Of a stretch of DNA of 64,000 nt, positions 2,366 to 53,115 are shown piece by piece. The stretch comes from Diadema setosum (taxonomy: Eukaryota; Echinodermata; Echinoidea; Diadematoida; Diadematidae). Position numbers and translations under genes: made by a program. The stretch spans positions 12,014,764 through 12,078,763 of the forward strand of contig NC_092692.1 of assembly GCF_964275005.1 (NCBI RefSeq). The letters run 5' to 3'. Positions within the stretch are counted from its first letter, which is position 1. Every line of letters begins with the position of its first letter. The notes beneath the pieces are model-generated. The model did not search any database and was not told where the DNA came from. It saw only the letters and a list, made by a program, of their open reading frames with translations.

Positions 2366-2431
2366 TTACATAATAGCACAAGATTTGCTCCCTTCCTTGG
2401 ATGCAGACTGAGCTGGAACCTCCAGTAGGTA
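2366..2431 (-). CDS. Macro-TIR gene, last coding exon with CaaX prenylation box
   Basis: Acceptor preceded by a long pyrimidine tract (TTTCCTCTTCTTTCTGAGCAG split by one G-rich step). Phase 0. Encodes YLLEVPAQSASKEGSKSCAIM then TAA. CAIM is a canonical CaaX box; Met at the last position favours farnesyltransferase. The 3' UTR below 2366 runs into an antisense SINE remnant (about 1914-2158). Confidence 0.72.
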   Translation of the reverse strand, partial: YLLEVPAQSASKEGSKSCAIM

Positions 2432-5400
2432 CTGCTCAGAAAGAAGAGGAAATGTTGTACAATCATTTGGTTATAGGATTTAGACATTCATGAAGGATTT
2501 TTTTTTTTCTCACAGAATTTGGAGATGTTAATGGCAAAAGAAAAATCAGGAATGTGATAGACACTGGTAAATATACAGAAGAGATAATACACCCTTACAT
2601 AAACTTTGGTATTTGAGAAGTACCCTGGGGGTTACTAGCTATATTGCACTTCCGTTATAATACACACAGTTATAATGAAATTCTTGTTACAATGAAATAA
2701 ACAATCCATTTCCCAAACTTATCATGTACATGTATTCATATACTTCACTATTTGGCTATAACGAAATGTCGACAAAACGAAAGAAAACTGCCAGTCTCGA
2801 GGACTTCATTATAATTAGAGTCATCTGCAAATATGAGTTTTTAATAGATGATGGGTCTTTGAATCATCCTATATATTCAAATCTGCACTGTTGAGGAGAA
2901 TTCACATTGAATGAGTACTAGCTGTCTCATCCAAGCTCAACAGAGGGTTAAAAACTCATGCACACAAAAAGTCACCCCAACCAATTAGGGACAATGAGCA
3001 AATATATACATGATCCACCACCAATTACATAAACAAATCAGATAATTTGGGAAAGAGTGAATTTAGGAAGGTCCTCAAACACTCATTGTGTCCCCTCCCG
3101 ATTGCCCTTGAATTGCAATAAGAGTACCCCCACCTTAGCCAAGGATGGTGATTTCTGGCCTTTCAGAGTGTCAAGCTCCGCCTGTAGCTTGACCGTGTTG
3201 ACCAGGGCTGGGCGGACTTTAGGTGGATCCTCCACTGGGATGGTCCTGTACAGGGTGGAAGGCATATTGAGGTTATTGGTAATGCAAGCACATACAACGT
3301 ACCAGCATTGCACGGATTTGCACCTCTTGGTGTGGAACAGTGCTAGCAAAATCTTGTTATAAGGAGCAAAAAACAATTTGTCTGCAACTTATTTTCCTTC
3401 CTTTTGACTGTCTGTCTGCCAGAGTTATTACTATATATAATCTACCCCAGAATTTAAGACCAGAATTTACCCCAGAATAGAAGACCCTAATACATTAATT
3501 GATATGATGAATACTGAGCTTAGGTCTGTGCAATCCTGGATTTATGCCAACAAATTATCCCTGAATATAGAAAAAACTTATTATATGGTATTCAGTAATT
3601 CTTTGAATGTTGTCCCACATGAGATCAAAATAAATGATATATGTTTAACGCAGGTCAATAACGCAAAGTTTTTAGGGCTTTGGATTGATCGAGAATTATC
3701 CTGGAAAACTCATATTAATTTCGTAAGTAAAATTTTGTCCAGAAATATTGGAATTTTAAACAAGCTTAAACATTTGTTCCCTGTTTATATTTTGCAGAGT
3801 ATATATTCTTCTTTAATATCTCCACACTTTAATTATGGAATTTTGGCGTGGGGAAATGCAATCAATTTACTATTAGATTCCCTTCTTTGTATTCAAAAGC
3901 GTGCAATAAGAATTATAAACCACGCCGGATATTTTGCTCATACCAACTGTTTTTTTCATCAAAACAGAATTCTGAAAATTCCAGACCTATTTCATTATAA
4001 TCTTGGAATTTTCATGTATAAACTAACAACTAATGAGTTACCATCCGTTTTTATTCACATGTTCAAAAGAAATCGCTCTATTCATTGCTACCCCACTCGT
4101 CAGAGTGACGCTTATCACCTTCCCCGTACTCGCACTAATTTTGCAAAGAAAACAATTATGTTTACTGGACCCAGATACTGGAGTGACCTCCCTCAAGATA
4201 TTACTTCTTCCTTATCCTTATTCACCTTCAAACGCAAACTAAAACGGCTATTACTTAGTGGATACACACTACCCGGCTCTTAGCAACATTTTTTTTTTTT
4301 TTTTATACCCCCAGTCTTTTGTCTTTGTCTGCAGCTCCAAGTTATTTGATGATACCGTTATAGCACTTTTTTTTTTTGTGTGTGTGTGTGTGTGTAAACA
4401 TGGCGAAATATGTACAGTCTCGTTTAAGCGATACTAAAGTATTCATGTGGTTCGATAGTTCGTTTTTAATACTGATTTTGCACTGGTACAATTTGAGTTG
4501 GTCGAGATAAACATGTCCGTTCTCCGTATAATTTCACGCCTATAAACTCGGGAACCTACAGTTTTTACAAGCGTCATTGCTTTTATGTAGGCCCCATCAT
4601 ATTTCTGACATTTATTTGTGATATCCTCAGATGAAAATGACCATTTATATTTGTGTGTAATGTTTGTCTTTTTTTTTTTCTTCAAACATAAGATATGGTT
4701 GTATATGTTTTGTACTTTTGTTTTATTGTCAATCATTTTTCTGACATTTATTTGTGATATCCTCAGATGAAAATGACCATTTATATTTGTGTGTAATGTT
4801 TGTTTGTCTTTTTTTTTTCTTCAAACATAAGATATGGTTGTATATGTTTTGTACTTTTGTTTTATTGTCAATCATTTTGTAATCCCATCACTGAGAAATG
4901 GAAATATGAAATAAACTTGAAACTTGAAACTTGAAAACTTAAGATGAATTACCAACATCAATCAATTCAAATCTGCCTTGAAAATACATGTTTTTACAGT
5001 CTAGGCAAATACAAAACTCGGTACGATAGCAATTACACTTGCACATTTCATTACAGTAGTTCCTTTTCTTGATTACATTGGGATATAATACACTTTATGT
5101 CATACACTATATAAATGTTGTTAAATTTTATTATCGTTATGTCTTTGGTACTTAAGTCATCAAGGTATTTACAAAAATTAGCAAATCAAATCAAAATACA
5201 AACAATGACTGCATCGTTAGGTAAGGTGTTTTCCCTCTCTCACAAACTGCATCACCATCATGACTTTACAGTAAATGCCAATGCATCTGTACAAACCTTC
5301 TTGCTTTGATGGCCATCATGAGAACCTGTGCCGCTTCTGTCATCGGAAGCAGCTCGTCCGGGGACAACTTTGGGAGGTCCTGCCTCCCGAGAGCATGCCG

Positions 5401-8400
5401 GATCTCCATGATCTTCCCTGCCGACTCTATCCGCTGGACGCCAGTCAGGTTGGCCCAGAAGGCATCCCAGGTATTCACCATGCTCCCAACCAGCTGGAAG
5501 TAGGAGGGGCGCTTCGGCAGCATGGCCACCTGGACTGGTATGAGGAGAGGTGCCTGGGCGGGGCTGACCCTCTGCCTCCAGAGACCAATGTGGAACTCCT
5601 CCACATGCTGGGGTGACTCGATGTAGCTCGGTGAGAGCAGCGCCACAATGCTGTCGGCCGCCTCCAGGCTGTCCAGTCGCTCTTGGTCGCTGGCAAACTG
5701 CCACCTCAAGGCCACGTTCGGGGCAAACTCTTTGACGAGGTCACGCAGGTGGTACACAAACTTGATATCTGACTCGTGATAGCTGAAAACCACAGTAGTC
5801 GTGCGCTTCTTTGAGCTGGATTGCTCCGGCATGTCCCCAGCATCTGAAGATGCAACTGCACTTCCTTTCTTGTCACTTCCAGCATCTACCGCATCACTCT
5901 TTTCTGCTTCTTCCTGTCCATCATCCACCTCAGTTTTCCCCTCCTCACTTGCCTCCTTTTTCTCCTCATTCTCCTGTTCTGCACCTTCTTTCTTTGTCAC
6001 TGAACTTGTTTCCCCTTCTTCAGCTTTACCTTCCACCTCTGCCTCCACGCCTTTCTCCACCTCATCTGCTTTGTCCTTTCCCTTGGTCTCAGAAGTTTCT
6101 TCAATTTGTCCCTTTTCCTGCTTGCCTTCATTACTCTCTTCCTTCTTTCCATCATCTCCGTCTTCGACATCGGTGAGTTTGTCCAGGGTTGGTGGGAATA
6201 TTTTCTGGCTCTTCAAACTGTCCCGATATTCTGCCATGAATCGGGCATTCCTCACCTCCTCCATCAAGCCTTGGACATTAAATTCTTTTGCCTACAGAGA
6301 AAAAAAAAATGCATTTCATGAAAAAAAGTCTCTCTCTATCTCTCTCGGTATTGTGCTTTGGTTACAGTTTGCATTTGGCAATTAAGAATCTGCACACGAA
6401 CTAGCTCTGCATTCATTCTTTGCACAACAATGTGCATGGATGTGTAGCACATGTGAAAGGCCATGATGCCAGTTTTAGTAATGAATCATTTTCCTTTCAC
6501 TGTTTAAGACATCTACAACTTGCTCTGACTATTTGATAATACAGAGTTCCATGCTTTCTGAATCGCATGAATAGGCATCAACAAAACATTATAAGTGATA
6601 TATGTTTATAGACAATGCACATTAAAAGGAATCAACAGGTACATATGATAGGTTGGATGGTCAATTGCAACGCAAAACGTGGCGCCAGCCATTTGTAAAA
6701 TCTGAATGGTTTCTATCAAAACACCAATTTCAAAGCAGTTTCTGATTCTCTCTGCATGCACACAACTGACACCTCCTTTACATTTGGTTGCATTGATGTA
6801 ACAGCAAGGATCTTTCTAAAGATTTTCATCTGGTTTCATCAATATTTCGTAAGGTTTTATGTATCAAAACTTCTTACTCCGAGGGGAAAGTTTGAGCACC
6901 ATTATGGGGACTCCAGTTTAAACTTGCATTTTTTTTGAGCAGATCTGACAAGTGATTGAAGGAGCCCATCTCCAGCCAGGACACAACAGCCGAGCAGATG
7001 CTGCTGACCGACTTCTCGTAGACCTGCGGGCGAGCATCCAGCATCGGGATGCAGGATATCTTGGCGAATTCAACCTCCTGACCATCGGCAATGCAGACCG
7101 GCACCAGATGCAGATTGTCCTGGAAAGGAGACGAACTTTATCCATGAAATCATTTTTTTATTGCTTTCCCATTCACTAGTCTACATTCCATCTCTACTCT
7201 TCAGTCCCTTTTCTTTCCATGCAAGACTTACTCTGATAAGATGAAAAATACATGAGAAGACATGTTTATTCAAATTCATGAAATTCTTCCGTCAAGATGT
7301 TTTCATTGCAACTGATTGACAAAATTTACGTCGATGTAGGGCAATTTTTCAATCAGTTGACATAATGTCTTATCTTCTTTCCAGCAAATTCTGGCCAGCA
7401 AAATCACCCCCAATCAAAATTGCAACTTCTGTTTTATTAACTACAGTAGTGTAAATCTAAAAGTACATATGTTTCATCATCAATATATCCCTGATTCCTA
7501 TTTTCATTTTTTTCCACTATCAAAATCTTGTGAAAAAAAAAAAATCAAAACCTATACCCTCATTTACAGTGGACGCCCGTTAAAACGCAGTCCTCCGGAC
7601 CGGCATTTTCTTTTGTTATATCGAAATTTCACTATAACCGAACAAGAAAACAATACAGAACATAGAGCCAATAATGTTGCGGCCTGAATTTCTATTTCAT
7701 TGTAACCAGAATTTTGTTATAACTGTGTTCGCTATAACGAGAGTGCACTGTATTCCTTACCCCAGCCAGGTGCTTCATCTGGGCCAGACTGTACTCCTCC
7801 ATACAGACAGCTGACTTGAGGTACTTGGGAGAAATCAGGGCTATCATGCAGGATGTTCCGTCGATGGAGTGGTACAGGGTGCGCTGCCACTCGTGTCCTG
7901 TAAAAAAAAAGTACAAACAAAAGTACAAAGTTAGAAGATAAACGGTTACAATTAGATACATGTGTGTGCTAAACCAGCCACAACCCCCCTACTCAAAACA
8001 AACAACGAACTTGCCAATAGCCATAATAACAAACTCAAGATCATTAATTTAGTAGGCATTTATGAAAAGTAAAGCTTATGGAGGTAACGACAATTCCATT
8101 TTGGCAATCTCTGTTTGAAGGGGATATAAACAATTATTCTTATCACCTGCCTGGAAATGCCTAACATCTTTGATTTTCAGAAATGACATTTTTTCTATAA
8201 AAAAATATATATATATTAACTTTTTGATGCTTTTATAAACTTTGCCTATTTGTATAATACCAATAAACATTGGTCAGAGAGCACTTTCATACATAGAATG
8301 AAAAATAAACACCTGAGATGCACAAGAGTTATGTCTGACTTAAATGGAAATATGGTTTAAAAGATAAAAAGATGGCACTAAGCTGAAATTTGGTATACCA

Positions 8401-11400
8401 ATGTGAAGAAATGGTATGTAATATGTGAACTATTTATTATTTTTTTAAACTGTCTAAAACATAACATTGAAATGTACAAGAGCTAGTAAAATTAAAAGTT
8501 TTATTTATAGTTATTATGTTATTTCAATGAGGGAAATGAAACATGAATGTTGAAAGAATATATATATACAGTATGTCCCCCCAAAAAAATTATAATCAGA
8601 TTTTTGCATTGATAACACCAAATGTGAGTAAACTGTCTTAAAGGGGATGGCTAGTAACTGATCAGTGGGAATGCTGGGGGATGATTTTTCCAATCCTTGT
8701 GAGATTCATTTAAGAGTACATTATATATCTATTGTTGTGTGAAAATTATTTGTTTCAGAATGGTCTCATATTCAAGTAATGGTCTTGTATTCAAGCGATC
8801 GTTAACGGCCCGTTAACAATTGCCCCGTCACTGTACAGGCATGCTAACTTGGAAACATTAAACTGCACATTACTTGAATATGAGACCATTCTGAAGCAAA
8901 TAATTTTCACACAACAAACAAGGACTGGAACAATCATCCCCATCATTCCCACTGATTCCCACTGATCAGTTACTAGCCATCCCCTTTAAATGCTACTTCA
9001 GGGTCATAAAATATAACATCTTAGATCTATTTTGCATAAAACCACATTCAATTTGGTTAAGCAGTCACAGAGAAATGTGGATTGTTGTAAAGCATGTCAC
9101 GAGTCTGATTCTTCCAAGTTTAGCACTTTGATGTTCTTGTGTGTGAATACAATAGGCAGAACTTGGAGGGAAGAGACTCCTAATATCCTCTAAAAATTCC
9201 TCATTTCTCTTTGACCACTGAAGCAAATCGAATGAAGTTTTCTGTAAGATGTGGGCAATGAGTTATAGTTTCATACCCTGAATTTTTATTTAGATTGATT
9301 CACTATTTTTAAAGATATCATTGCAGAGGGTACCGTTGTAATTTTTGGGTGGACATACAGTATATATATATATATATATATGCATACATTAATTCATCCA
9401 TTTATTATTTGAGCCTTTGATCTATACCTACAACAATTAGGGAATTTCTATTACAATAAAAGTAAAATCACAGGCATTTGCATACAAAATTAGAGATGAT
9501 TTAGACACACATGCATTATGCTGAATAGATTGCTGTATAATAGTGCAATGGCAGATTGACATACAGCATGTGTGTATGTATATATTTACATGTATATGTG
9601 TATTGTTAGCATGAGTGCGAAGTAACAGAATAGGCTCATTCATTTCAGTAAAGCTGATACAGCAGCCATACAAAAACAGAGATACATATTGTAGCATGAA
9701 GAGCATAAAAGTTTCACTCAACTAATAAAAAAAAAAAACACTGCAAATATAAACAAATATGAATCTCATAGATAAATTGGGCTGAACTTGATGAAATGAT
9801 AGCAAACATTTTTTATTTTCCGGTGACACACAGAAAAAAAAAAAATCTAAATGGGAAAAATAGAAAGAATGTCCATAGTCCACAGTAGTTTTTCATCTGA
9901 AAGTAAATATATCTGACAAAATCAATTTTAACATTGAAAGAAAAAAATATGCTGCAAATATTATGATGAACAGCATCTTGGTCACCTGACTGCTTAAGGC
10001 AATATAAAGACAATTAGAGGATAAATTAACATTCAAGCAAAACAGAAATACTAGGAGTGCTCTAATTTCTTGAGTTTTCATTTGACATTTTGCAGACATA
10101 TTCCACTATTCTAATGACTCAACATTCTGTGCACACAGAAATCCAAGAAAAAGATATTCAAAAGATTCCAAAAATGATGGTAAATGAGACCTGTGCCTTT
10201 AAACAGAGAATAAGAATTGTGATTTAATATTTTAGAATCATCAAGGTGATGCAAATGTGGAAGTTGTGTGAAGACAATGGCCATGATTCCACAGATGCAG
10301 ACACAGATCAGCAAAGACGTCATTTCCAATATGAGACCCTAGAACTGAAGAAAAAGGACTGGACAACAACAACAACAACAACAAATTAATCTGGGCAATG
10401 TTCGAGTCTGATATTTGTTAATAGTGCATCAAGGTGAAAACATAATTGTTAATGTCTCCAGAACAGAAATTTCACTGGATGCCCAAAAAGTCATTAGGAA
10501 TCAATCAATGAGAACACTTATGATAAGAGGTCTTAATCAGCACTTTGAATTGTAGGGCATGCACACTCACAAGACATTCATTCACTTCACGTCACCTATG
10601 TAATGAAAGAAGAACATATCCATTATTACACAGACAGCGACATGAACAGGACAAAGGTCAGAGTGGTGGCATGTCACATTGAAACAGAAGGGTACATACA
10701 CATGTGAAAGCTAGCAAACTTGAGATGTGGCTCTCACCAGTCTTTAGCTCCTGTATATCATAAAAGATCTTCTGGCCCGGGTTAAGACGCTTGAACTTGT
10801 TGACGAAGGGCGTGGCCTGGTCGGAGTCAGCGTGGCAGTAGGAGATGAAGATGTCGTAGAGGTTTGGGTCAGTGGTGGCAACTTTGACCACTTTGTCTGT
10901 GGCTGTCAGTGATTTGACCAGCTGGCCACAGGCACTGGCTATGTCATTCTCAAGGTCCTCCCTGCATTCACACCATGAGTGACAGTTGTCATGTGTTATT
11001 GATGGAAAGAAACAAGATTAGTTTGGTGGAAGCTTGTCAGGACAGTCTTTGCTCAAGTGATGAGGTTGGAAAATTAAGCATGTCTCCTATATTTCTGTTG
11101 TTTCTTTTTTTTTGCGGGGGGGGGGGTGGGTGGGTGACATATTACTCCTAACTAGCATGTTTACTTTCAAGACACACACTACCACTAAGTACTAACCCTG
11201 CCCATTTACAAATTAGATCTCCTTGCTACAAATGTTTTTGGTATCTGGCTCGATTTGAATTCTAGGTATTCAAACAAATGCAATTCGTGCAACATACAAG
11301 AACATGGAGCAATCATAAAAGTAACAAATTATCACAACCATTGTCTATTTACCTCAATCGTTTAAACCCTGCCATCAGTGTGGTCTGTTATTTGGTCCAC

Positions 11401-17400: not shown

Positions 17401-20400
17401 CCTCAACGGGTTAAAGGAAACAGATTTGTCTCGCAATCCACGAATCACCTGTCAAGACGCGGGCCGACTTGGTCATCAGCTCGTACATCTGGTCCTGCCA
17501 GAAAGACTCGGCGTCGAGTTTCTGTCGCGAGTTGTAGATGCGTACGTCCGGCTTCTCTTCCAAGAGGCATGCCTGGATCCTGTCCGCGACCTCCTGGTCC
17601 TTCTCGCTGTAGGACAGGTACACATCGTACTCAAGGGTCACCTCCTGGGGGCGTAATTTTTTTTATTTTTATATCAATTAAATGTACATGCAAATTTTAC
17701 AGATACCGGTATGCCACTGAAATGTTTGACATGTATGTGTTGTACCACACTAGGGTCAAAGACCTTTCTCATGTATTACTTGACAGGTTAATGCCATACA
17801 ACAAATCCACCTCCCACTGAAGCTTCAACCATGAAGAGACTCAAGATTGTCTACTGTCAGATACATTCTTTATATCATATATATATATATATATATATTA
17901 TTTAAGTTGTATTCTGCTTTAACTGCATGAAATAAATGAAAATCGACCCAAATAAATCGAGGCTGATTTGGGAAATTCCTCATTGGTTTGGTTTGCCAGC
18001 CAAGTCCTAATAGCAATCACTATGAATATAGAGTTTGAGTGCCTGGTTTAATGACTGAAATTCATTCATTCATTCATTCTTTTTATTTCATTCTTCAGAT
18101 ACAAATAGTAAAATATCAAACATTCATATATATACACAATATATACAGGTATAAAAATGATTTTAAAAATATTTCAGCAAACAAATGCAGTAGAACAAAC
18201 AGAGTACATTATAACAATAAAAAAAAAATGAAATAGGATGTATCAGGAAAAGAATATGAGGCTCGAGAGGTAGATACACCCATTACATATGACATAAAAA
18301 TAATTACAGCACAAAATTACTCAATGCGTGTTTGTGTGTGAGTGTGTGTGTGTGTGTGTGTATAAGGATGTTTAACCTTTGTCAACAAAAGACATAAATC
18401 GTGGAGTACTGCCAGCTTTATGTACACCTTGTATCATATGATCAGTGCGTATGAGTCACCATAAAGATGATGAAAACCAGAAACCAGCTATTTGTTACTA
18501 ACAAATATTGAGACAGAAACTTCCCTGATAATATCAACATCGTACTCTTGCAAGCATCCTCTGGCTCTTTTTAATAGTTAATGAGAAGTCAAATAAGACA
18601 CTGACATGTCAACAGACAAGAGTTTCAGTTGTTACAAACAGAGAAAACATAGACCTACAAGGAAACATCCTAATAGGGACTTGAAAACAGTAAAAACAAA
18701 CAAACAAACAAACAAACAAACAAACTGACAAGCAACTACAGGATGTCTATTAATACATCCTTATCTGTGCTGCTGCATTTCAAATCACATCCATTTTGAC
18801 CGAAAAAGTCAATTTTGACTTTAAGATTGCAAAGCCTACTGATGCATTTACCTTAACAACATGGTTGACACTATACCAATTGTCAAGTGGCTTGCTGTAT
18901 GAAAGAATACATGCCTCTACCAGCACTACAGAGTACATATGTTCTCACATGTCACTGGTGGCCAGCTTAGATATCACCTCTCAATGAAAGCACTCTTAAT
19001 TGTACACTTGTGTTTTCTCACATTTCATATACCTGTAAAACTCAGGTCAATTTTTACATTGACACAAAAGAAATATGCTTTTGTCTAGTCTGCTGTATGA
19101 AAACCAGTCAATTTTACCAGACCTCAACTTCCATCATTGAGTGTATGTGTGTCCAGTCAAAAAAAAAAACAACAACAACAATTGAAGGGTCATTAAAAAA
19201 CAACAACATGAATTTCTTGACTTTGACTTCTTCTTTTTTTTTTTTTTAAGTACTCAAGACCTCAAATATTTCCAGTGACAAGTAATATTTTTTTTTCAAC
19301 TATATATTGGGGAACAAAGAAATTCACAGAAATGGTAAGAACGACCACTGCAGCTGGGGGACTCAAACCATGGACTAAATGATTATTTATTATCATTATC
19401 ATTACTAATTTTGGGGGGCAGTAGGTGTTTGTATGTTTGACCACTTCACCTGGAATTCTCCCAACTCTTTATGAGAAAAGTAAAGTTCTTTTATAATGTG
19501 CATAGGGTATGGCACTCCTACATATGGGAACAACAGCCTAAGCCTAAGGAGGGACTTGTCAATGGGGGTAAAATGCCTTGCCAAAGGGAACTACTTACAG
19601 GCTGGGACTTCAAATATTATATCATTTATATACAAATATTGCATCCATAGATCGGTTTCAATATATACCAGTATGCTGCGGAACTGTGCTATAAAGGGGT
19701 AGTACCCTATACTGCAGCCAAATAAAGATAAAGAGGGATCTGAATACAGTCCAACCTCTCCTGGCCCGACATATCGGGACCTGCGCTCGGCCGGATAAGG
19801 GATTTGGCCGGATATGGTAGACCCATTGTTAAATACATGCAGATTCCTATCCACTGGTAGCTGCACATGTACACTGTCATTGTACATGTAACCTATTGAA
19901 GGTAGCATACATTGAAACTCTTTCTTTGCTATCAGCGCCAAATTATAAGCAGGGTCTTTTTTTTTTCTTAAATGATTTGCTCAATGAACAATTGCCTGTA
20001 CCATGCCCTGATTTCATAAAAAGTTTCCATGTTCTTGCGGTGATTTGGGGTTAGCAATGTCTGAATGTATGTTACTTAGATGAAAATTACATGTGACTGT
20101 ATATTAATTATGCTGGGAATAATATGTAATTCATGTGAGTTTGTGTGGGAATTTTGTTTGAGTTTGAAATCCCCCTTTTCCCCCTAATTATTAGATTGAA
20201 AAAAAAAAAATCCTGCTGAGATTGTACCTGGATAATAGAGAGATCCGGAAAAGGGATGCTGGATAGAAGAGGTCAGACTCTATTGATCATCAATAAATGC
20301 TCTTCTTTGCTGTCCTCCAAACAACACTAGTACTTTGAGTTTGGCCTGGACTTTACACTAGACTAGCACCCCTTGGTCACATGGTGAGGGTCAAAGAAAG

Positions 20401-23400
20401 ATTGACTGAAGGGCATTCAACCATTACTTCAACTCACCGCGGGAATGAGGTTGGCAGACTCGTAGTGCTCTTTGAGTTCCTGGAACTTTTTCAAGATGTC
20501 CTCATTGCAGCCTCTCATGAACTTGGGCGTGCTGCCATCTAGCTTGGCATAGACAACAATCTTCAGCAGCTTCATGGCCAGACCTGCCTTGACCCAGCTG
20601 ACCGCTGCCTGGACCATGCCGTCCAACATGACACAAGGGTCGTAGCCCTGGTAGCAATAATCAATGTGACATTGTATTTTTCTCTTTCAGCAGAGTCATA
20701 AATAGACTTCAACTTTCTTTATCTCTTTTTTTTTTAGCACAGTTAGTTAAATGGTGTACATAATAATGCATACTGGATTTTTTTGTAATGGTTGTGAAGT
20801 AGGCCTACTTTGCCATTGTCTGTTATGTTTTACTCTTTTGATGGTTTCACTAGATCATTTCATTGCAATCAAAGAGATTAACACTGTAAGGAGAGAACTG
20901 GAACCCAGCCCTGTTTGAAGCTGTATGGTGAACCATATTCCTTGAACATGAATTTCTACCAAATTTGCGAGACAATACGTCACTGAGTTAAAGGTATTGT
21001 TTACTATTGGGAACAGTGATTTGAAAATATGTTCAAGTTATCACATTTGATGCATATATGTAGGTCAGTTGTATCACAAAACATCCTACCATATAAAAAT
21101 TTGCAATAAAGCCACATTTATAAGGAGATATTACCATTTTTTTTTCACTAAACCATAACTGTAGACCATTTAGTCTAGAAACAATTTTACTTAATATGAC
21201 TATTGTTCGAATTTTGTATTTCAACAAGGCTTAACACTGATCACACTGTTTAACATTTTTACATTGGTTATTTCTGTCCATAACTCATAATTCTAGAACT
21301 ATTTTGAAGCACTAAATCTAGGTTTTTGTTTCATCTGCAAATGGTAAATAATGCCTTTAAGGTAAATAAGGCTTCAAATCTCCAGCTTGGAGGGGATGAT
21401 TGATGAAACCAAGTACAACTCAAATAAGAAGTGACTAGAAATGTCGCTATGGCGACTGATGCCTCCGCCATAATGCATCATTCTCCCAATAGGTGTACAG
21501 TACAATGTCTTCACAATGTGTGATGACAGTTTCACATAACTGGCAGAAATATCTTGAATGTTCACTTTCCACGAACTGGGTTTGCTATAATTGTCTATTA
21601 AAGAGTGCAGGTACGCATATTTGGGGAATTGAAAATTTTTACTTGACTTCTGACCGATCTTATTATAAGTTTATGCATTGAGTATAATTTTCAAGGTATG
21701 AAGAAAGAGTGTAATTACAGTACAAAATATATCTTTTTTTTTTGCATTTAAACATGACCTTTGACCCTTAACATTTGACCTTCGACCTTCTGGCTGAAAA
21801 TTTCCAAGAGAATCTCCATTAAGTAATACATGTACATATATCAAATTTTAAAACTAATAATGCAATCATTGCATATACTAGTATATGAGGAAAATAGTAA
21901 CATTTTGAGGAGTTGACCTTGACCTTTGACCCCATGACTATTGACCCATGACCCCTAAATTCCCTATATAATCCCTGCCAATCAGTACATGCATATGTAC
22001 AAGTTCCATGAAGATACATTGAACTATTTGCGAGAAAAGTGATATTGCAACATTTTCACCTAACCTTTGACCTTTGACCTTATGACATGAAACTCTCTCT
22101 GGATAATCTTTACGCAGTAGTACATGTCTACACAAAGTTTCAAGAAAATAACTGCATTGCACAGATATGGGGGAAATAGCAACATTTTTTGCATTTGACC
22201 TTGACCTTTTGACCTTTGACCTCTTGCCAATGTCACTGAAATCTACTCAACTAATTGTCCCATCATACATCATCCTTGGACCAAGTTTGGTGAAAGCTGC
22301 TTCATCCAGTTTTGAGTTATCACGTAAACAGATAAATTTTAGGATTTGACCTTGATCTTTGACCTTTGACCTCTGTCTGATTTCACTGAAAAACTAATCA
22401 AGTAATTGTCCCATCATACATCATCCTCCAAGAAAGTTTGGTGAAATTTGCTCCATCTAGTCTTGAGTTATCGCGTAAATGGATACAATTTCATGATTTG
22501 ACCTTGACCTTTGACCTTTGACCTTTAGCCGATTTCGCCCAAAATCTAATCAAATCATTGCCCCATCATACTTCATACTTGGACCAAGTTTGGTAAAATT
22601 CCAGTAAATATTACTCAAGTTATCGCGTAAACGAAAGCGGACGGACGTACGTACGGACGTACGGACGGACGGACGGACGGACGGACGGACGGACGGACGG
22701 ACAACCCGAAAACATAATGCCTCCGGCACCACTTCGTGGCGGAGGCATAATAATACACAAGTCCCCCCATCATTTTACTCCCTTGTAGTTGTACAGAAGA
22801 AAACCCACATGTTTTATTACACTGGGACATTATTTATCACAGAAACATGTTGCTGAACAATTTACAGCAGAGTAGACCATTTTTTAGACAATTCATACTG
22901 ACAAGCAGGTAAAATGTGATCAAGGATAAATCCTGATTATGCTACCGAGTAGTTCACAGCATAACTCTCTTTCCTGTGAGAAAAGTTCCCAGGCAGATAT
23001 CACACACTTAGTTCACATGAGCCACGAACGAACAGTAACTCTTCTTGTTCCTTGGGAATGGCTTCTGTGCCTGACATCATGCACGGACATTCCGTTGCTA
23101 TCCCCTGATCCATTTTTTTTTTCTGCAATCTGATTTAGGCATAGGCTAAGCTGCAGACCCACTTAAACCTTTAAGTTACATTTTGAAGAAGAATTCACAG
23201 GTGTAAATTACTGTCATATTTAAATTGAAGAAAGGAGCAACCATTTAACAACTAAAAGTAATCAAAACAGATTAAAAGTTATTTGTTTTTTAAAAAGGAA
23301 ACACATTAAAAGTTTTTTTTTTTTTTGAAATGAGAAAACTTAAAGGGATGGTACAGTTTTGGTTGAGATAAAATATGAAAGAGCATACAATTTTAAGAGG

Positions 23401-26400
23401 AATTCAACATTTATTTGATGAAAATTGGTTTTGAAAAAGCATTATGCAGAAACAAAGAGGTCTTCATAAAAGGTGAGACCCACCATTTATTAGGATCATT
23501 TTGTTTTACTTCGTTTTTGAATTTGTCTTTGAGTCACTTGCACTTTAATATTTCATAAGTGGTTTCTAATTATCTCGCAAAAAAGTTAAAATCTGTATTC
23601 CCATCTCAACAAAAACTATGAAATCCCTTTAAAGAAATCAAACATACACCAAGATCACAGAACAATCCCCCCCCCCCCAACACCCACACACACACACACG
23701 CACACACAAATGATATTTCATCCGTATAGAACTCACGCGTCTGGGTATGAGACTACTAAAAGCACAAAGATACATTTTTTTTTTGTCATCAATCAAGGTA
23801 GCTTCCTGCCACAAATGGCAACCCAACACTAATCTTCTTACAGGATAGGATAGTAAGGTCTGAGGTCATGTAGAGGAAGGACATCCCTATCATCTGTAGC
23901 CCTCATCCGTATTGACACTATAGGCAAACCTCTACATCAGACACTGCCTACTTAATCCAAATGGATGTTGATTTGTGTTGATTTATGATACCCTCAACAT
24001 CACTTTTGCAGTAAAACAAATATCTAGAAACATTCCATATATTTTGAACATTTTTTCTTCTATTTTTCTTCAGATTACTTGGGAACGCCCACAAAAAAAT
24101 CCTTCCAAACCAATATTCCTCAGATGACATCATCAGTCAATCATTGCTAAAGTACTGAAATGTTTAACAAAAGACATTGGAATGCACCTTCCCCTTGACT
24201 CAGCATAATTTGCATGTTCCCTCGCCATGTCTTTTGTTAGTCACATTGCTAGCCGGGTTCACACGTACACCAATTAGCGGGATACAAATCTCGAGATTTG
24301 CATCGCGATCGTCATCCCGAGTTTTTTGCACGTGTGGACAGAAAAAACCCGAAAATTAGCGGGATAAGCATCGCGATGCTAATCCCAAGAAATCTTGAGC
24401 TGGTTCGTCAATTAGCGGGATAATTGGCCCCGCGCTGGTACGTGTGAACGGTCGGGATTAGAATCTCGAGTTTTTACATCCCATCATGCAATATGCACAT
24501 CACAACAGCGAGGCCTCTGCGAAGAGGTCCTTCACCTCTTTGGAGCACAACAACAACAGCGCGCGAACCACACCACTGACGCGTAAAAGACAATGGACAA
24601 AGGTAAGTGCGCGCAGGCAGTGATAGAGAAGGGCGCTGTGTGACTCAGTTTGCAGGCTTTGCTGTTATCTCTATCGGCAATTAGCGGGATAATTCGGTAC
24701 GTGTGGACGCTCGCCAAATTAGCGGGATACCGATCGCGATCGCTATCTCGCTAATTTGGTACGTGTGGACGCTCGCAAAAAAACTCGGGATGAGCATCGC
24801 GATCGTCATCCCGCTAATTTGTACGTGTGAACCCGGCTAATATCACAGAAACATGCAAGTTATGCTGAGTTGAGGGAAAGGTGCATTCCAATGTCTTTTG
24901 TTAAACATTTCAGTCCTTTAGCAATGATTGACAGATGAGGTCATCTGAGGAATATTAGTTTGGAAGGATTTTTTGTGGGCGTTCCCAAGTAATCTGAAGA
25001 AAAATAGAAGAAAAAATTGTTAAAATATATGGAATGTTTGTAGATATTAGTTTCACCGCAAAAGTGATGTTGAGGGTATCATAAATCAACATGAATTTGG
25101 ATTTCAGGGCCCCTTAAAGGAGAGTTTCCCTAAACATGTATGTACAGACAGAAATATCCCTGTACTCAATGAAAGTTGGAGGAAAAGTGGACAATCCATT
25201 TAAAAGAAATGGAGATATTTTTTTTTCCTTTTTAATAATTTCAAGTGCAACCCCAAAATTACTGGCCTACTTTCCCAGAAAAAAAAAAAATTGCTCCAAT
25301 GTCATATAGAATTTTACCTGATTCCCTGTGCTGAGAAGTGGTGTGATCACACTGGCATCCTTGTTCTTCAAGATGGGTACAAGACACCGAAAGGCGTGAC
25401 CGACGAGCTCTTGGGGGCGCCCTGCTCGAAATCTAAAACAGACATCAAAAAATGTAATTCTCTTAGGAATTGGAGTACTGGCTTGCTTCAAGATGAGGAT
25501 GATTCATTTCTCTTTTTTTTTTTCTGTTCTTTGGTTTTGTTTTGTTTTTTTTTTGGGGGGGGGGGAGCCTTTCAAAGAGGACAGAACACTGACAGTGTAA
25601 AACAAATAAAAACAATCAAGGTGGAATGGATCTAAAACATATTATGTGGATGACACACTCAGAAATGTATGCTTCATATACTTTTCTAAACATATACAGA
25701 AAATAGGCATGAAATACAACACATATAACTAAAGAAAGAAAATAAAATGCTCTATATGAGTGCACGTTGAATACAGGATAACCCTATTTACCTGCATAAT
25801 ATGTCCCTTTCTCTACCTCTTTATCTATCTGTCTATATATCTATCTATCAATACATTAATCATTCACTCACGTACTACAACAATTAACCAATAAATCTAT
25901 CTACCTATCATCTCTCTTTTTTTCCTCTCTATATATGTGTATATAATATATATATACATATATGCGAGTGTGTGTGTGTGTGTGTGCGTGTGTGTGTGCG
26001 TGTCTGTGTGTGCGCGTGCGTGTGGAGAAGTGCAGGAAGCCAAATTACCGGACATCCCATCAAATCACTAATCTATTTTCCCAAAGTTATGCTCCATGGA
26101 ATGACTCATGCAATTCACCTTGGGCACAGCCATGTCAAACATCAGATTTAAGACCAACAAAAAAGCCCTCTATTATAATTATGACTCACATAGCACTGTG
26201 TACAGCAGGCAAGATTGCATGAAGTAGCACCCATATTATATTCTTGTATGTGTGGGTGTGTGTACATGTATACAGGGTTGCACACTAACCCGTTTCTTCT
26301 ACTGGTCCGACCGTTACGTCAGTCCAGTACATACATGTAGGTACCTATTTTTTCCATTTTTTTACTGGTAAATTCCTGAAAAAATTATACTGGTCTGACA

Positions 26401-28391
26401 GTGATTTTTACTGGTCAGGGACTGTTGGACCAGTGCCAGAGTGCAGCCTTGATGTATATGTGTGTGTAAATATATGTTTTGTTTTTGTTTTTGTTGTATA
26501 CATACATTCAAGACAAAACTCATGTTATATTATTGAAATCAAATAAAGATTTGGGGAAAATAATAGAGTGTGTGAGTGCATGTGTATGTGTGTTCTTGCA
26601 GATTGCCTGTATGTGTCTATCTCTAGGATGCATGATAGGCCTGTGGCCACTGTTTCAGTACAAAAACACAATGTGTGCTTTGCTCTTGTTCTTGATGATT
26701 AGGAAGGGAAATTAGAAGAAAATTCACAGCTCTTGCAGTGCCTTGTGGATGTTGTTTGGATGAAAGCATTTAAAACACTGAATCCCTGTGTAGTTTCAGG
26801 AGAACAAAATTAGGAAATACTGAAACAATAACATCCCTTGGTGTTTCTTGTAAAGTTATTGCTTGAGGTGTTAAACTGACTACCACAATATTTGTCATGG
26901 CCAATCAGCATTGACCAAAAGACCTACAATCTAATATCTGCATGTCATAATAGTCAGTATGTAGATGTGTCAAGTTTCATTATAATCATTGGCACTGAAC
27001 ATAAGGGACCCCTTCCCCCTTCCCCACCAAAAAAAAAAAAAGTACACAGACAAATGCATGCAATGGAAAACAGGAAAACAAAAACAAACAAGCATGATTG
27101 CTAATACTTTCTGCTCAAGATGGCAGACATGGCCTGACCTTTTTCCTGGCCTGACCTGACCTTTGACCTTCGGAAGCAATCTCTAGCTTACTGTTTACAC
27201 CATATATTTAGCGAGTTTAAATCTTTGCGAATCAGGATTTCCCAACAATTTCATGAATGGTTAAATTCGCGATCGTGGAGTACTGTATTGAATCGTATAC
27301 GCGTGTGTCACATTCATATCGGGATCAAAGTCATTATTTTCGAGTGTCTTTAATTTCGCGAATAGCACCTGACTTGCGAAATTCGTGAAAATAAAAACCT
27401 TGCGAAATATTCGGCGTAAACAGTACCTCCTGCTTTCAAAGCAGAGCACCCTCCTGTAAGGCAGATTGGATGGGAGGGGCTTTGACCACCAGCAGGAGTA
27501 GAGCACCCTCAGGTCCTCCTCTTTGTCCTCCGCTAGCTTGGAGACGTCAATGCCCAGATTCTCGTACAGGGCCCCGATGACCGTCCCTGGGATCTTCTCA
27601 TAGTTGCCTGGGAGAAGAATAGTGTGTCAGAGAAATGAGTTTACTGGTAAGAAAATCTGGTGTATAGGGGTACGGAATGATCAAAGGGTGTGTAGGAAGT
27701 CAACCTTGCTCTTTATGAGATGAATAATAATTACAGAAGGTGTATAGATCTGTCATGTGCAACCATTTCAAATTGGGTTGCAACTGATCGTAAAGTTTGT
27801 TGCATGTACACTACTAGTCAGTGAGTTACAACATGTGTGAATATTACTGTATTACTGACAAATCACAAACTTGCTCAAACATTATGATCCTACGTGTTGA
27901 TGAATAAATACCCTCTCATTCAGTTGGCTTTTAGTATATGACAGCCCTTGAATCACAAAATACAGTTCCACAGGTAATGAGTATGATAAAGAATTTTGAT
28001 GCACACCGAATCCCTATGTCAACTTGAAATTATCATTATGTTCCAAACAATCAAAGTTTTAAACCTAATCTAACTTTAGGAATTCAAACCTGAAGTATAA
28101 AGGCTGGTTTATGTGATCAGATAAGGGGTACATGTCAAGAATCAAGCGTGCTAATCATGGTCATCTTTTAACTTACAGTTGTACAATATCAAGACTCAAG
28201 GTTGCATAGTTTGGAAGGAAAGGAACAAACTCTACTGCCAGCTCACCTCCAAATGATGACACAAAGATGACATCCACTTGTTCTTTCTTCTGGAGCTTTG
28301 TAATGTCCCCCAAGCAGAGCTGAATTTGGCAGTCGCCCTCCTGAGTTTTCACTGTGATCACATCGTGACCTATCAATTCTTTCTTCGGCAT
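2366..28391 (-). CDS. Macro-like domain + triple TIR protein with CaaX box (12 coding exons, gene span)
   Basis: Assembled by joining 12 minus-strand exons whose splice phases all agree: 28391-28247, 27607-27427, 25432-25318, 20647-20438, 17644-17449, 15059-14900, 10961-10738, 7897-7761, 7119-6928, 6291-5297, 3245-3134, 2431-2366. The sum is 2,733 bp, 910 residues plus stop. Seen: residues 1-217 resemble a macro domain (GDIT at 28-31, STGNQGYD at 143-150); TIR1 about 222-357; TIR2 about 370-520; acidic/Lys linker about 561-680; TIR3 about 684-830; CAIM at 907-910. Known: TIR domains are adaptors or NAD+ hydrolases/cyclases, macro domains bind ADP-ribose derivatives, and CAIM (the lamin B ending) is a farnesylation signal. 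Inferred: a membrane-attached signalling or NAD+/ADP-ribose-responsive protein, perhaps innate immune. I know no named orthologue. Exon order is secure; the GC donor at 6927 and the last two exons are the least certain parts. Confidence 0.85.
2644..2828. mobile_element. Pogo-like MITE, decayed copy
   Basis: GCACTTCCGTTATAAT at the left, internal ATAACGAAATGTCGAC and GAGGACTTCATTATAATTAGAG at the right; same family as 39907-40438. In the intron between the last two exons of the macro-TIR gene. Confidence 0.6.
3134..3245 (-). CDS. Macro-TIR gene, coding exon 11
   Basis: Acceptor CCCTGTACAG. Its first base completes an Arg codon left by the TIR3 exon. Encodes TIPVEDPPKVRPALVNTVKL, then a short helix QAELDTLKGQKSPSLAK, ending in phase 0 at donor GTGGGG. 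It is assigned to this gene because phases match on both sides and no other upstream exon is visible. A 5'-truncated LINE in the opposite orientation lies in the intron between this exon and exon 10. Confidence 0.72.
3480..4940 (+). mobile_element. 5'-truncated LINE (Jockey/CR1-like reverse transcriptase end)
   Basis: An open frame to the TAG at 4281 keeps the C-terminal part of a non-LTR reverse transcriptase: ANKLSLNIEKTYYMVF, FLGLWIDRELSWKTHI, IYSSLISPHFNYGILAWGN and QKRAIRIIN. The 3' end is a short AACTTGA tandem tail (about 4913-4938) after AAATAAAC. The 5' half, including the endonuclease and catalytic part, is missing. It lies antisense in the intron before the last two exons of the macro-TIR gene. 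The open frame of about 260 codons suggests a fairly young insertion. Clade is uncertain. Confidence 0.85.
4602..4878 (+). repeat. Tandem duplication within the LINE 3' UTR
   Basis: Two near-identical copies, 136 bp period (4602-4737 and 4738-4878), both starting TTTCTGACATTTATTTG and ending GTCAATCATTTT. The second copy has a 4-base GTTT expansion. Confidence 0.9.
5127..5132 (-). terminator. Possible polyadenylation signal for the intron-retained TIR3 form
   Basis: AATAAA on the minus strand about 135 bp beyond the in-frame stop at 5266-5268. If the intron after the TIR3 exon is retained, this would end an 861-residue form without the CaaX tail. Confidence 0.3.
5297..6291 (-). CDS. Macro-TIR gene, coding exon 10 (acidic linker and TIR3)
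   Basis: Acceptor TCTCTGTAG, phase 0. Encodes AKEFNVQGLMEEVRNARFM, then about 120 residues rich in Glu, Lys, Asp and Gly, then TIR3 starting RTTTVVFSYHESD (about residue 684). ALLSPSYIESPQHVEEFHIG carries Glu752 at the catalytic-Glu position. The end is at donor GTTTGT inside AGAAGG (phase 2), matching the exon at 3245. Reading past this donor gives a stop at 5266-5268, so an intron-retained form would lack the CaaX tail. Confidence 0.9.
6300..6920. other. Intron, no structure seen
   Basis: Only a short CT-rich run (6330-6347) and A-runs. I searched for an extra minus-strand exon here to test the GC-AG intron and saw none. Confidence 0.5.
6928..7119 (-). CDS. Macro-TIR gene, coding exon 9 (end of TIR2)
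   Basis: Acceptor TTTCCAG. Encodes DNLHLVPVCIADGQEVEF, then a helix ICSAVVSWLEMGSFNHL and LLKKN. I place the donor at GCAAGT (6927), a GC-AG intron, because only that site gives a phase-0 join to the next exon's strong acceptor. A GT donor (GTAAGA, after 6877) also exists, but it is phase 2 and would need an extra exon I cannot find. The start is firm, the end less so. Confidence 0.75.
7567..7749. mobile_element. Pogo-like MITE beside a TIR2 exon
   Basis: CAGTGGACGCCCGTT at one end, CGAGAGTGCACTG at the other, TA on both sides. It ends 11 bp from the donor-side end of the exon at 7761. Confidence 0.75.
7761..7897 (-). CDS. Macro-TIR gene, coding exon 8 (middle of TIR2)
   Basis: Strong acceptor (T-run then ACAG). 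Encodes HEWQRTLYHSIDG, CMIALISPKYLKS and VCMEEYSLAQMKHLAG. Glu445 in CMEE aligns with the TIR catalytic Glu. Ends at phase-0 donor GTAAGG. A pogo-like MITE (7567-7749) sits 11 bp inside the intron from this exon. Confidence 0.92.
8638..8990. mobile_element. Foldback MITE
   Basis: Ends TTAAAGGGGATGGCTAGTAAC and GTTACTAGCCATCCCCTTTAA are inverted copies; the inner arms (TATTCAAGTAATG / CATTACTTGAATA) also pair. Its TTTAA edges resemble the other AAAGGG foldback elements in this window. Confidence 0.8.
8991..10737. other. Intron, little structure
   Basis: A TA microsatellite (9361-9381), AACAAC repeat (10,363-10,384) and nothing gene-like. Confidence 0.5.
10738..10961 (-). CDS. Macro-TIR gene, coding exon 7 (end of TIR1, start of TIR2)
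   Basis: Its first base completes Arg336. EDLENDIASACGQLVKSL closes TIR1 as the last helix. A short spacer follows, then LYDIFISYCHADSDQA (box 1 of TIR2, residues 370-383) and IFYDIQELKTG (BB loop). Ends with donor GTGAGA in phase 1. Confidence 0.9.
10962..14899. other. Intron, no recognisable element
   Basis: Contains a G-run near 11,120, a C-run near 13,637 and AT-rich unique-looking sequence. A GC-richer stretch around 12,640-13,030 has no supported exon. Confidence 0.45.
14900..15059 (-). CDS. Macro-TIR gene, coding exon 6 (second half of TIR1)
   Basis: Begins with two bases that complete Val283, then LTPSYLSSEACMEQYNIAL, the TIR strand D and helix region, through to QYADC. In TIR NADases the catalytic Glu falls at the fifth position of a WCxxE-like motif; here the aligned residue in CMEQ is Gln297, so TIR1 may be non-catalytic. 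The donor GTACCT leaves two bases. The acceptor (CTATCTAAG) is weak in pyrimidines. Confidence 0.85.
15493..15703. mobile_element. MITE, CTGTAAAAGTGGATATT family, decayed
   Basis: TGTAAAAGGGAATATTTTCGC at the left and GAAAATTTCCACTTCTGCAG at the right; same family as 45675-45883 and 16070-16278. Confidence 0.75.
16070..16278. mobile_element. MITE, CTGTAAAAGTGGATATT family
   Basis: CTGTAAAAGTGGATATTTTTG and AAATTTCCACTTTTACAG are perfect or near-perfect inverted ends. Confidence 0.8.
16479..16562. mobile_element. piggyBac-like MITE (copy 1)
   Basis: Starts CCCGTTGAGGATGAGTCC and ends just before TTAA at 16563; an inverted-orientation copy of the 17323 element. The left TTAA is lost. Confidence 0.7.
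17323..17410. mobile_element. piggyBac-like MITE (copy 2, intact)
   Basis: 88 bp: CCCGTTGAGGACGG ... CTCATCCTCAACGGG, flanked by TTAA on both sides (17319-17322 and 17411-17414), the piggyBac target duplication. Lies 38 bp from the TIR1 exon. Confidence 0.85.
17449..17644 (-). CDS. Macro-TIR gene, coding exon 5 (first half of TIR1)
   Basis: Acceptor CGCCCCCAG. Encodes EVTLEYDVYLSYSEKDQEVA, the TIR box 1 strand and helix A, then an SRQKLDAESFWQ BB-loop-like region and SARVLT. Ends with donor GTGATT, leaving one base. A piggyBac-like MITE (17323-17410) begins 38 bp beyond the exon. Confidence 0.9.
17645..19746. other. Intron with microsatellites
   Basis: TA repeat (17,877-17,899), TG repeat (18,331-18,361) and AAAC repeat (18,693-18,725). 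No gene signal. Confidence 0.6.
19747..20280. mobile_element. Pogo-like MITE (CCTCTC/GGCCGGATA family)
   Basis: CAGTCCAACCTCTCCTGGCC at the left, inverted and decayed at the right, TA flanks (19745-19746, 20281-20282). Shares GGATAAGGGATTTGGCCGGA with the copy at 46100-46557. Confidence 0.75.
20438..20647 (-). CDS. Macro-TIR gene, coding exon 4 (end of macro-like domain)
   Basis: Seventy codons in phase 0 on both sides (acceptor CTACCAG, donor GTGAGT). Encodes GYDPCVMLDGMVQAAVSWVK, then LLKIVVYAKLDG and a helical tail ending NLIPA. The helix and the LKIVVY strand match the last helix/strand pair of macro domains. Confidence 0.85.
21440..22750. repeat. Tandem TGACCTTTGACC repeat element ending in a GACG array
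   Basis: Six or more blocks of TTGACCTTGACCTTTGACC spaced about 110-180 bp apart, with conserved spacer (GTCCCATCATACATCATCC, AAGTTTGGTGAAA, GAGTTATCGCGTAAA), then a GACG/GTAC array at 22638-22702. GCCTCCGCCATAAT (21461) and GTGGCGGAGGCATAAT (22736) form inverted edges, so the whole is probably one mobile or dispersed repeat about 1.3 kb long. Confidence 0.8.
22751..23338. other. Intron, no structure seen
   Basis: Unique-looking AT-rich sequence without repeat edges or exons. Confidence 0.45.
23339..23634. mobile_element. Foldback MITE (AAAGGGATGGTACAG family)
   Basis: TTAAAGGGATGGTACAGTTTT opens; CAAAAACTATGAAATCCCTTTAA closes. Same family as the pair at 60175-60960. Confidence 0.8.
23955..25104. 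mobile_element. Large palindromic foldback element carrying an inserted element
   Basis: Left arm 23955-24222 and right arm about 24847-25104 are inverted copies (TTGATTTATGATACCCTCAA versus its complement; GGAATGCACCTTCCCCTTGA versus its complement). The centre is replaced by the separate element 24251-24838. Confidence 0.85.
24251..24838. mobile_element. Inverted-repeat DNA element nested in the foldback
   Basis: Ends AGCCGGGTTCACACGTAC and GTACGTGTGAACCCGGCT are perfect inverted repeats. Inside are several copies of ATTAGCGGGAT and GCATCGCGAT in both orientations. TA flanks. Confidence 0.85.
25318..25432 (-). CDS. Macro-TIR gene, coding exon 3 (macro-like domain)
   Basis: Acceptor CTGTTTTAG; encodes R109 to Q147, including ELVGHAFRCLVPI and ASVITPLLSTGNQ. 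The LLSTGNQ ending, followed by GYD in the next exon, matches the STGxxG phosphate-binding loop of macro domains. Ends in phase 0 at donor GTAAAA. Confidence 0.85.
25433..27190. other. Intron with microsatellites
   Basis: G-run near 25,555; TATC/TA/TG repeats 25,820-26,020; an inverted-end fragment CAGGGTTGCACACT ... GTGCAGCCTTG (26,275-26,452) that looks like a small MITE. TGACCTTTGACC occurs again near 27,160. Confidence 0.55.
27191..27423. mobile_element. MITE on the donor site of macro-TIR coding exon 2
   Basis: CTGTTTACACC at one end and GGCGTAAACAG at the other, TA on both sides (27189-27190, 27424-27425), internal TTCGCGAA-type motifs. Confidence 0.8.
27427..27607 (-). CDS. Macro-TIR gene, coding exon 2 (macro-like domain)
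   Basis: Acceptor TTCTCCCAG, then GNYEKIPGTVIGALYENLG and on to RRVLCFES. It takes the single base from exon 1 (Gly49) and leaves two bases. The segment corresponds to the helix after the first ADP-ribose loop of macro domains. The donor GTACTG lies on the edge of a MITE (27191-27423): its T and A are the TA target duplication and the following CTG belongs to the MITE. Confidence 0.8.
27608..28246. other. Intron, no structure seen
   Basis: AT-rich, no repeats or exon signals recognised. Confidence 0.45.
28247..28391 (-). CDS. Macro-TIR gene, coding exon 1 (start of macro-like domain)
   Basis: Encodes residues 1-48, starting MPKKELIGHD. The start is the ATG at 28391; an acceptor-like tract ending at 28418 (TTCTACAG) lies just upstream, so a 5' UTR exon probably precedes it. 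CLGDIT followed by VDVIFVSSFG matches the first two strands of macro domains (usual form GDIT...VDAIVNAAN). The exon ends with donor GTGAGC, leaving one base (phase 1). Confidence 0.8.

Positions 28392-44430: not shown

Positions 44431-53115
<8,685 letters not shown>

Follow-up and report, generated by a model that had tools for sequence, protein, structure and literature searches.

How does an animal gene come to encode a macro-like module and three TIR domains on one chain, and what might such a protein do? The question is raised by a locus of the sea urchin Diadema setosum in a stretch of 64,000 nucleotides, referred to here as the window (contig NC_092692.1, positions 12,014,764 to 12,078,763). 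An echinoderm source agrees with the mitochondrial contig, on which cox1, with 9 in-frame TGA codons, is followed by tRNA-Arg, ~1 kb with two genes read by eye as nad4L and cox2, and tRNA-Lys (anticodon CTT); such an order and such a tRNA-Lys are typical of echinoderms.

The window gene and its three further copies

The gene lies on the minus strand and spans positions 2366-28391 of the window. On re-joining, its 12 exons run in phase into 910 residues with a sole, terminal stop, in exact agreement with the original prediction of 12 in-phase exons and a protein of that length. The exons are as follows:

Exon 1, 28247-28391, minus strand: start codon, followed by the N-terminal portion of the macro-like domain; the Met is homologous in the three other copies
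Exon 2, 27427-27607, minus strand: macro-like domain
Exon 3, 25318-25432, minus strand: macro-like domain, with the TGNQ loop at the exon end
Exon 4, 20438-20647, minus strand: macro-like domain, C-terminal part
Exon 5, 17449-17644, minus strand: first half of TIR1
Exon 6, 14900-15059, minus strand: second half of TIR1, with Gln297 in the catalytic-Glu column and a PTYM..DCRE end as in bacterial macro-TIR proteins
Exon 7, 10738-10961, minus strand: linker and start of TIR2
Exon 8, 7761-7897, minus strand: TIR2, with Glu445 in the catalytic column
Exon 9, 6928-7119, minus strand: end of TIR2; GC donor
Exon 10, 5297-6291, minus strand: acidic linker (residues 558-680) and TIR3 (Glu752)
Exon 11, 3134-3245, minus strand: short C-terminal piece whose core, around PALxN, is conserved
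Putative exon 12, 2366-2431, minus strand: ends in CAIM and a stop (CaaX box); no counterpart found in the other copies

Ten of the 11 introns are GT-AG, and the one behind exon 9 is GC-AG with the donor GCAAGT. A GT donor for this exon breaks the frame and was rejected; the GC donor restores the phase and is consistent with the phases in the other copies. In the joined protein, Pfam TIR_2 recognizes TIR1 (2.6e-17, 63.9 bits) and TIR2 (2.8e-17, 63.8 bits), and in the exon of the window copy itself it recognizes TIR3 (1.4e-6, 29.2 bits), all three scoring above the family cut-off of 28 bits.

Outside the exons, the window holds several repeats. The intron between exons 3 and 4 carries tandem arrays at 22182-22598 and 24690-24829, with units of 151 and 62 bases, and an AAT triplet array of 88 copies (99% matches) is found at 44941-45205. 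The exon 10-11 intron has, on the plus strand, a 280-residue open frame (3441-4283) that has no Pfam match at E ≤ 0.01 and that resembles the final part of a LINE-type reverse transcriptase. Scans for Rfam families and tRNAs found nothing in the window.

Three other copies of the gene are present in the 912.7-Mb genome: copy A on contig 8 (1.80 Mb), and copies B1 and B2 on contig 13 (26.42 and 26.46 Mb). Built exon by exon, they comprise 809, 786, and 788 residues, respectively, with the last exon excluded. All four copies share a homologous start methionine and the order macro-like module, TIR1, TIR2, TIR3, which is the domain order originally predicted, and the phases of exons 1 to 11 are identical, with exon 10 of copy A being split in two. 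By eye, an in-frame stop separates the splice acceptor of copy B2 from the start Met. Chance open frames are ruled out by four copies of the same architecture.

The gene is under purifying selection. For B1 and B2, the closest pair, dN/dS (Nei-Gojobori-type) is 0.19 over 780 codons, falling to 0.10 in the macro module and 0.08 in TIR1; the window copy and A give 0.18, with synonymous sites near saturation. The macro-TIR gene is thus real and conserved. A separate feature of the B1-B2 pair concerns TIR2, which is nearly identical between the two (pS 0.16, 137 codons), while pS reaches 0.61 to 0.67 in the macro, TIR1, and TIR3 stretches (in this and the dN/dS comparison, the last stretch is residues 720-843, which cover most of TIR3 and also the tail). 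The gap between the TIR2 value and the others is suggestive of recent gene conversion in the region of the TIR2 exons.

The regions around TIR3 are more variable. The acidic linker (123 residues, 558-680, 42 of them D or E) occurs in the window copy and is absent from the other three, so it was rejected as a family feature. Behind TIR3, a counterpart of exon 11 is found in all three other copies, and in all four copies a donor site follows this exon; therefore some last exon exists. In the window, seven phase-0 terminal-exon candidates pass a strict acceptor cut, and one of them is the exon ending in CAIM, whose acceptor is good. At the same cut, no CaaX box is found among 10 candidates behind B1, 11 behind B2, or 11 behind A, with one B2 candidate bearing a CxxX of non-CaaX kind. 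A looser cut yields two, three, and three other CxxX frames behind B1, B2, and A, respectively, none like the window exon, and a search for that exon itself around the other copies returned short matches only. Among 419 like terminal frames, collected on both strands in the window and in the DNA around the copies, a strict CaaX appears by chance in three and any CxxX in 16.

Prenylation via the putative exon 12 is possible but unproven, because the CaaX frame of the window copy has no counterpart behind A, B1, or B2. A simple hydropathy scan found no stretch resembling a membrane helix in any of the four proteins (highest 19-residue means, 1.22 to 1.47), and transmembrane anchoring was rejected on hydropathy alone. 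Of the membrane location originally proposed, what stands is a CaaX frame in one of four copies; the proteins offer no helix-like stretch to go with it.

The N-terminal module and its bacterial relatives

Taken alone, the animal module is scarcely recognizable. Pfam returns nothing at E ≤ 1 for the window module; at E ≤ 5 the window copy again has none, and the animal macro modules give two unrelated families, one member each. A phmmer search of the PDB with the animal module reaches PARP15 at 0.15, and a profile of the four animal sequences places PARP15 at 0.83, behind an unrelated match. With hhalign, the animal sequences alone align to three ordinary macros with a probability of 6%.

Bacterial relatives were sought by a degenerate DNA scan of bacterial and archaeal genomes with the motif A-x-P-L-x-x-[TA]-G-[DN]-Q-G. 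Seven of the resulting 38 loci hold an open reading frame that the animal macro profile recognizes at E ≤ 4e-11, and the other 31 gave nothing below E 1. The seven are as follows:

L056, alphaproteobacterial metagenome-assembled genome: macro + TIR (macro profile, 1.9e-42)
L057, Nostoc: macro + TIR, on a 343-kb contig
L071, acidobacterium: macro + TIR, in a 5.99-Mb record (partial sequence)
L062, Robinsoniella: macro + TIR, more distant
L073, Ignavibacteriales: macro-like module + DUF4145 (Pfam)
L061, Synechococcus: macro-like module + DUF4145 (Pfam)
L074, Spirosoma: macro profile match

Through these relatives the family comes into view. A profile of eight bacterial macro sequences has 14 PDB matches at E ≤ 0.1, and all 14 are macrodomains, the best being PARP14 at 6e-7. 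The mixed profile (A3) has PARP14 as its best match, at 9e-8. Up to E 1 it reaches 38 sequences, the majority bearing macrodomain names; its match to PARP9, at 0.26, covers positions 17-189 of 194. Animal and bacterial modules align to each other by hhalign at E 1e-44 (probability 100%), and the mixed profile aligns to ordinary macros with a probability of 81%. Some of the bacterial modules show traces of the same identity below the databases' cut-offs: L073 and L074 match Pfam Macro at 0.015 and 0.04, and L074 matches the NCBI O-acetyl-ADP-ribose deacetylase model at 9e-4. The N-terminal module is therefore taken as a diverged macrodomain on sequence grounds, established through its bacterial relatives, and it was by this route that the macro-like call of the original prediction proved right.

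The G-x-Q-G loop is invariant in all 10 aligned macro rows. In the loop position of the canonical Asn-rich motif, the module has a VSAF..Y.PTP..LIGAL-like sequence. In canonical and catalytic macros this loop carries the Asn-rich motif, and because the loop is changed, the ligand of the animal module may differ from that of canonical macros. Macrodomains of the PARP14/PARP15 type, the best PDB matches of the macro profiles, are matched mainly in the C-terminal half of the module, and they have partner domains unlike those found here.

Spread and descent of the macro-TIR pair

In L056, L057, L071, and L062, the macro module is followed by a TIR domain in one open frame. L056 aligns end to end with animal macro + TIR1, with 34 to 37% identity to the three animal copies aligned, as compared with 47 and 37% to the other two bacterial rows of the same alignment. 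Animal and bacterial macro-TIR sequences have in common SCW, C.E, the G-x-Q-G loop, and the TIR ending (P[TS][YF].., DCRE or DCR); the PTYM..DCRE ending of the animal TIR1 is shared with L057 and in part with L056 and L071. Animal contamination is an unlikely source of the bacterial genes, because L071 lies in a 5.99-Mb record and L057 on a 343-kb contig.

The family is thinly spread. At E ≤ 1e-6, matching genomes number at least three of 292 in the phylum of Nostoc, at least two of 297 in that of the acidobacterium, at least one of 398 in that of the alphaproteobacterium, and at least two of 395 in that of Spirosoma, these counts being lower bounds, as the best candidates of each genome were scored. 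Five of the eight matching genomes are seed genomes, and among the other genomes there are at least three in 1,377. In those three, the macro modules have DUF4145 (L083 and L084) or a protein kinase (L085 to L087) as partner and no TIR. L085 to L087 are three paralogues in one genome of the acidobacterium's phylum, each joining a protein kinase (Pfam Pkinase, 9e-39 to 2e-38) to a macro-like module. Because the macro module sits on TIR, DUF4145, or protein kinase in bacteria, it behaves as an input domain on several outputs.

In the acidobacterium, locus L117 has TIR genes at 3957-8095 and 12002-13300 and the macro-TIR gene at 16214-17221, all within ~13 kb. By eye, three TIR genes at this locus have pentapeptide-like repeats. 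The neighborhood is possibly a defense cluster.

For the seven bacterial proteins, Pfam finds the TIR or DUF4145 parts and NCBIfam has no match above its cut-offs. PADLOC matches to the four TIR-bearing proteins fall entirely, or nearly so, within the TIR half, the best being PDC-S66 at 4e-12 (L056). None of Pfam, NCBIfam, or PADLOC holds a name or a known defense system for the macro-TIR pairing. Pattern searches of the genome and viral contigs with the animal macro alignment turned up 23 and 61 pattern matches, respectively, of which not one was confirmed; tblastn with the B2 macro module gave 22 weak partial matches in plasmids (best E 2) and none in phages; and the first degenerate DNA pattern had no match in viral contigs.

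To place the animal gene among these relatives, phylogenetic trees were generated for both domains. In the macro tree, the four animal copies group with L056, L057, L071, and the three kinase-fused macros with support of 96/98, and the DUF4145-fused macros, L074, and L062 fall on the other side of this split. A group of the animals with L056, L057, and L071 alone is neither shown nor rejected (p 0.34). The best TIR tree joins TIR1 to L056 and L057 (81/72), and AU tests rejected none of four groupings, including TIR1 with Toll-like receptors (p 0.23) and TIR1 to TIR3 with Toll-like receptors (p 0.115). The TIR trees alone thus do not settle descent, and the full-length match across macro + TIR1 is the stronger argument for it. 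A eukaryotic parallel to bacterial TIR/ligand-sensor pairs had been proposed for this locus; the parallel holds in a stronger form, as full-length two-domain homology, and it is no longer to be read as a mere analogy to such pairs. A bacterial NAD-signalling module seems to have been retained in animals and to have grown there.

Catalytic-type residues, possible function, and meaning

In NAD+-cleaving TIR domains, a glutamate has a catalytic role. We set its column by alignment, in which the second Glu of CxEE corresponds to the Glu of TLR2 WCKYE and the Gln of MyD88. At this position TIR1 has Gln in all four animal copies (Q297 in the window copy) and Glu in none, while TIR2 and TIR3 have Glu in all four (E445 and E752, respectively). 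By eye, Glu is also found in the four bacterial macro-TIR proteins. The Gln in place of the catalytic-type glutamate of TIR1 was not remarked on in the original prediction. By eye again, TIR3 is shortened before its Glu, and the ..L..G..W.. loop is missing from it in every copy; TIR2 alone combines the QEL.TG..WQ loop with Glu, the full set seen in L056 and L057, and does so in all four copies. Glu alone is not sufficient for an NADase call, because TLR2 also has Glu at this column and is not known to be an NADase. A catalytic role of this Glu in NAD+-cleaving TIRs is reported in a TIR atlas preprint (PMC13142454).

The closest likeness is to the bacterial macro-TIR proteins themselves (L056, L057, and L071, with L062 more distant), in which macro and TIR occur in the same order as in the animal protein; the latter adds TIR2, TIR3, and a tail, and its TIR1 has Gln for Glu. 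Among animal TIR proteins, SARM1, MyD88, and the Toll-like receptors are also comparable, and MyD88 shares the Gln of TIR1 at the catalytic column; none of these is known to have a macro module or three TIRs. The SARM1 TIR is reported to be a separate bacterial acquisition (PMC13142454). A further likeness is to Thoeris TM-macro (ThsA TM-macro and ThsB TIR), which places a macro domain and an NAD+-cleaving TIR in one pathway. There, ThsB can make both ADPR and imidazole adenine dinucleotide, and the macro domain binds the two and oligomerizes (PMC11204291). The Thoeris parts are separate proteins and ThsA has membrane helices, whereas the animal protein is a single chain in all four copies with no membrane-helix-like stretch. 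No chain named ThsA is found among the PDB matches of the mixed macro profile up to E 1.

That the protein makes or senses an NAD+-derived signal can fairly be inferred from knowledge of the family. The explanation we favor, tentatively and with a little less than even confidence, is that the protein is a nucleotide-gated TIR switch, cytosolic and of bacterial type, that animals have kept. Its macro module would bind an ADP-ribose-type NAD+ derivative as a ligand sensor, and binding would drive self-association, making the macro module, by analogy with Thoeris TM-macro, a nucleotide-gated trigger of TIR assembly. TIR1, with its Gln for Glu, and TIR3, with its Glu but shortened before it, would serve as scaffold; TIR2 would be the likeliest enzyme, cleaving NAD+, or would relay the signal by TIR-TIR assembly. 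By analogy with bacterial TIR/macro pairs, the protein would then act as an immune or stress amplifier. A bolder form of the proposal, which we consider rather doubtful, puts a whole TIR/macro immune circuit on one animal chain, in which the TIR2 product would be read by its own or a neighboring macro module in a self-amplifying assembly, the two altered TIRs having become scaffold after bacterial transfer.

Several other explanations bear on the same evidence. The protein could plausibly be a non-enzymatic adaptor, whose TIRs only bind TIRs, as in MyD88, and whose macro module, serving for docking or for reading ADP-ribose, recruits it to modified proteins or nucleotides. The Gln that TIR1 shares with MyD88 and the loop missing before the TIR3 Glu in all four copies (by eye) both favor such a role, as do the PDB matches of the TIR profile, among which TLR2 and MyD88 come first (1e-12) and bacterial TIR enzymes follow at 7e-6 to 9e-6; it is TIR2, keeping loop, W-Q, and Glu in every copy as in L056 and L057, that argues for an enzyme. 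It is improbable that the macro module is itself an enzyme and not a sensor, an ADP-ribosyl hydrolase or nucleotide-processing domain that clears the TIR product and keeps the signal in check. The module has the VSAF..Y.PTP..LIGAL-like sequence in place of the catalytic Asn-rich motif, even though hydrolases (AF1521 and MACROD2) are among its PDB matches. A survey predicts that macro domains regulate TIR anti-phage systems, perhaps by targeting cADPR (PMC9503650), which would suit this enzymatic role.

That separate neighboring genes were joined by eye is very hard to credit. The introns are long and the gene model is known from genomic sequence alone, but exons 1 to 11 keep the same order and phases in four copies on two contigs, and macro and TIR share one open frame in the bacterial proteins.

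In the open-access literature covered on macro and TIR domains, Thoeris, and echinoderms or sea urchins, we found no description of an architecture of macro plus three TIRs; relatives may already be in databases without a name. The TIR atlas lists eukaryote-only TIR clades 3 and 9 to 13 as uncharacterized (PMC13142454), and the animal macro-TIR protein may belong to these.

These results link animals to a rare bacterial macro-TIR family that has a likeness to anti-virus defenses and whose pairing has no name in Pfam, NCBIfam, or PADLOC, and they provide an example, open to testing, of a two-domain bacterial architecture, and not just one domain, in an animal gene. The pattern found in every copy, Gln in one TIR and Glu in the other two, leads to sharp predictions as to which parts are enzyme and which are scaffold, and the bacterial macro-TIR proteins, being short and encoded in a single open frame, offer a simple handle on the same question.
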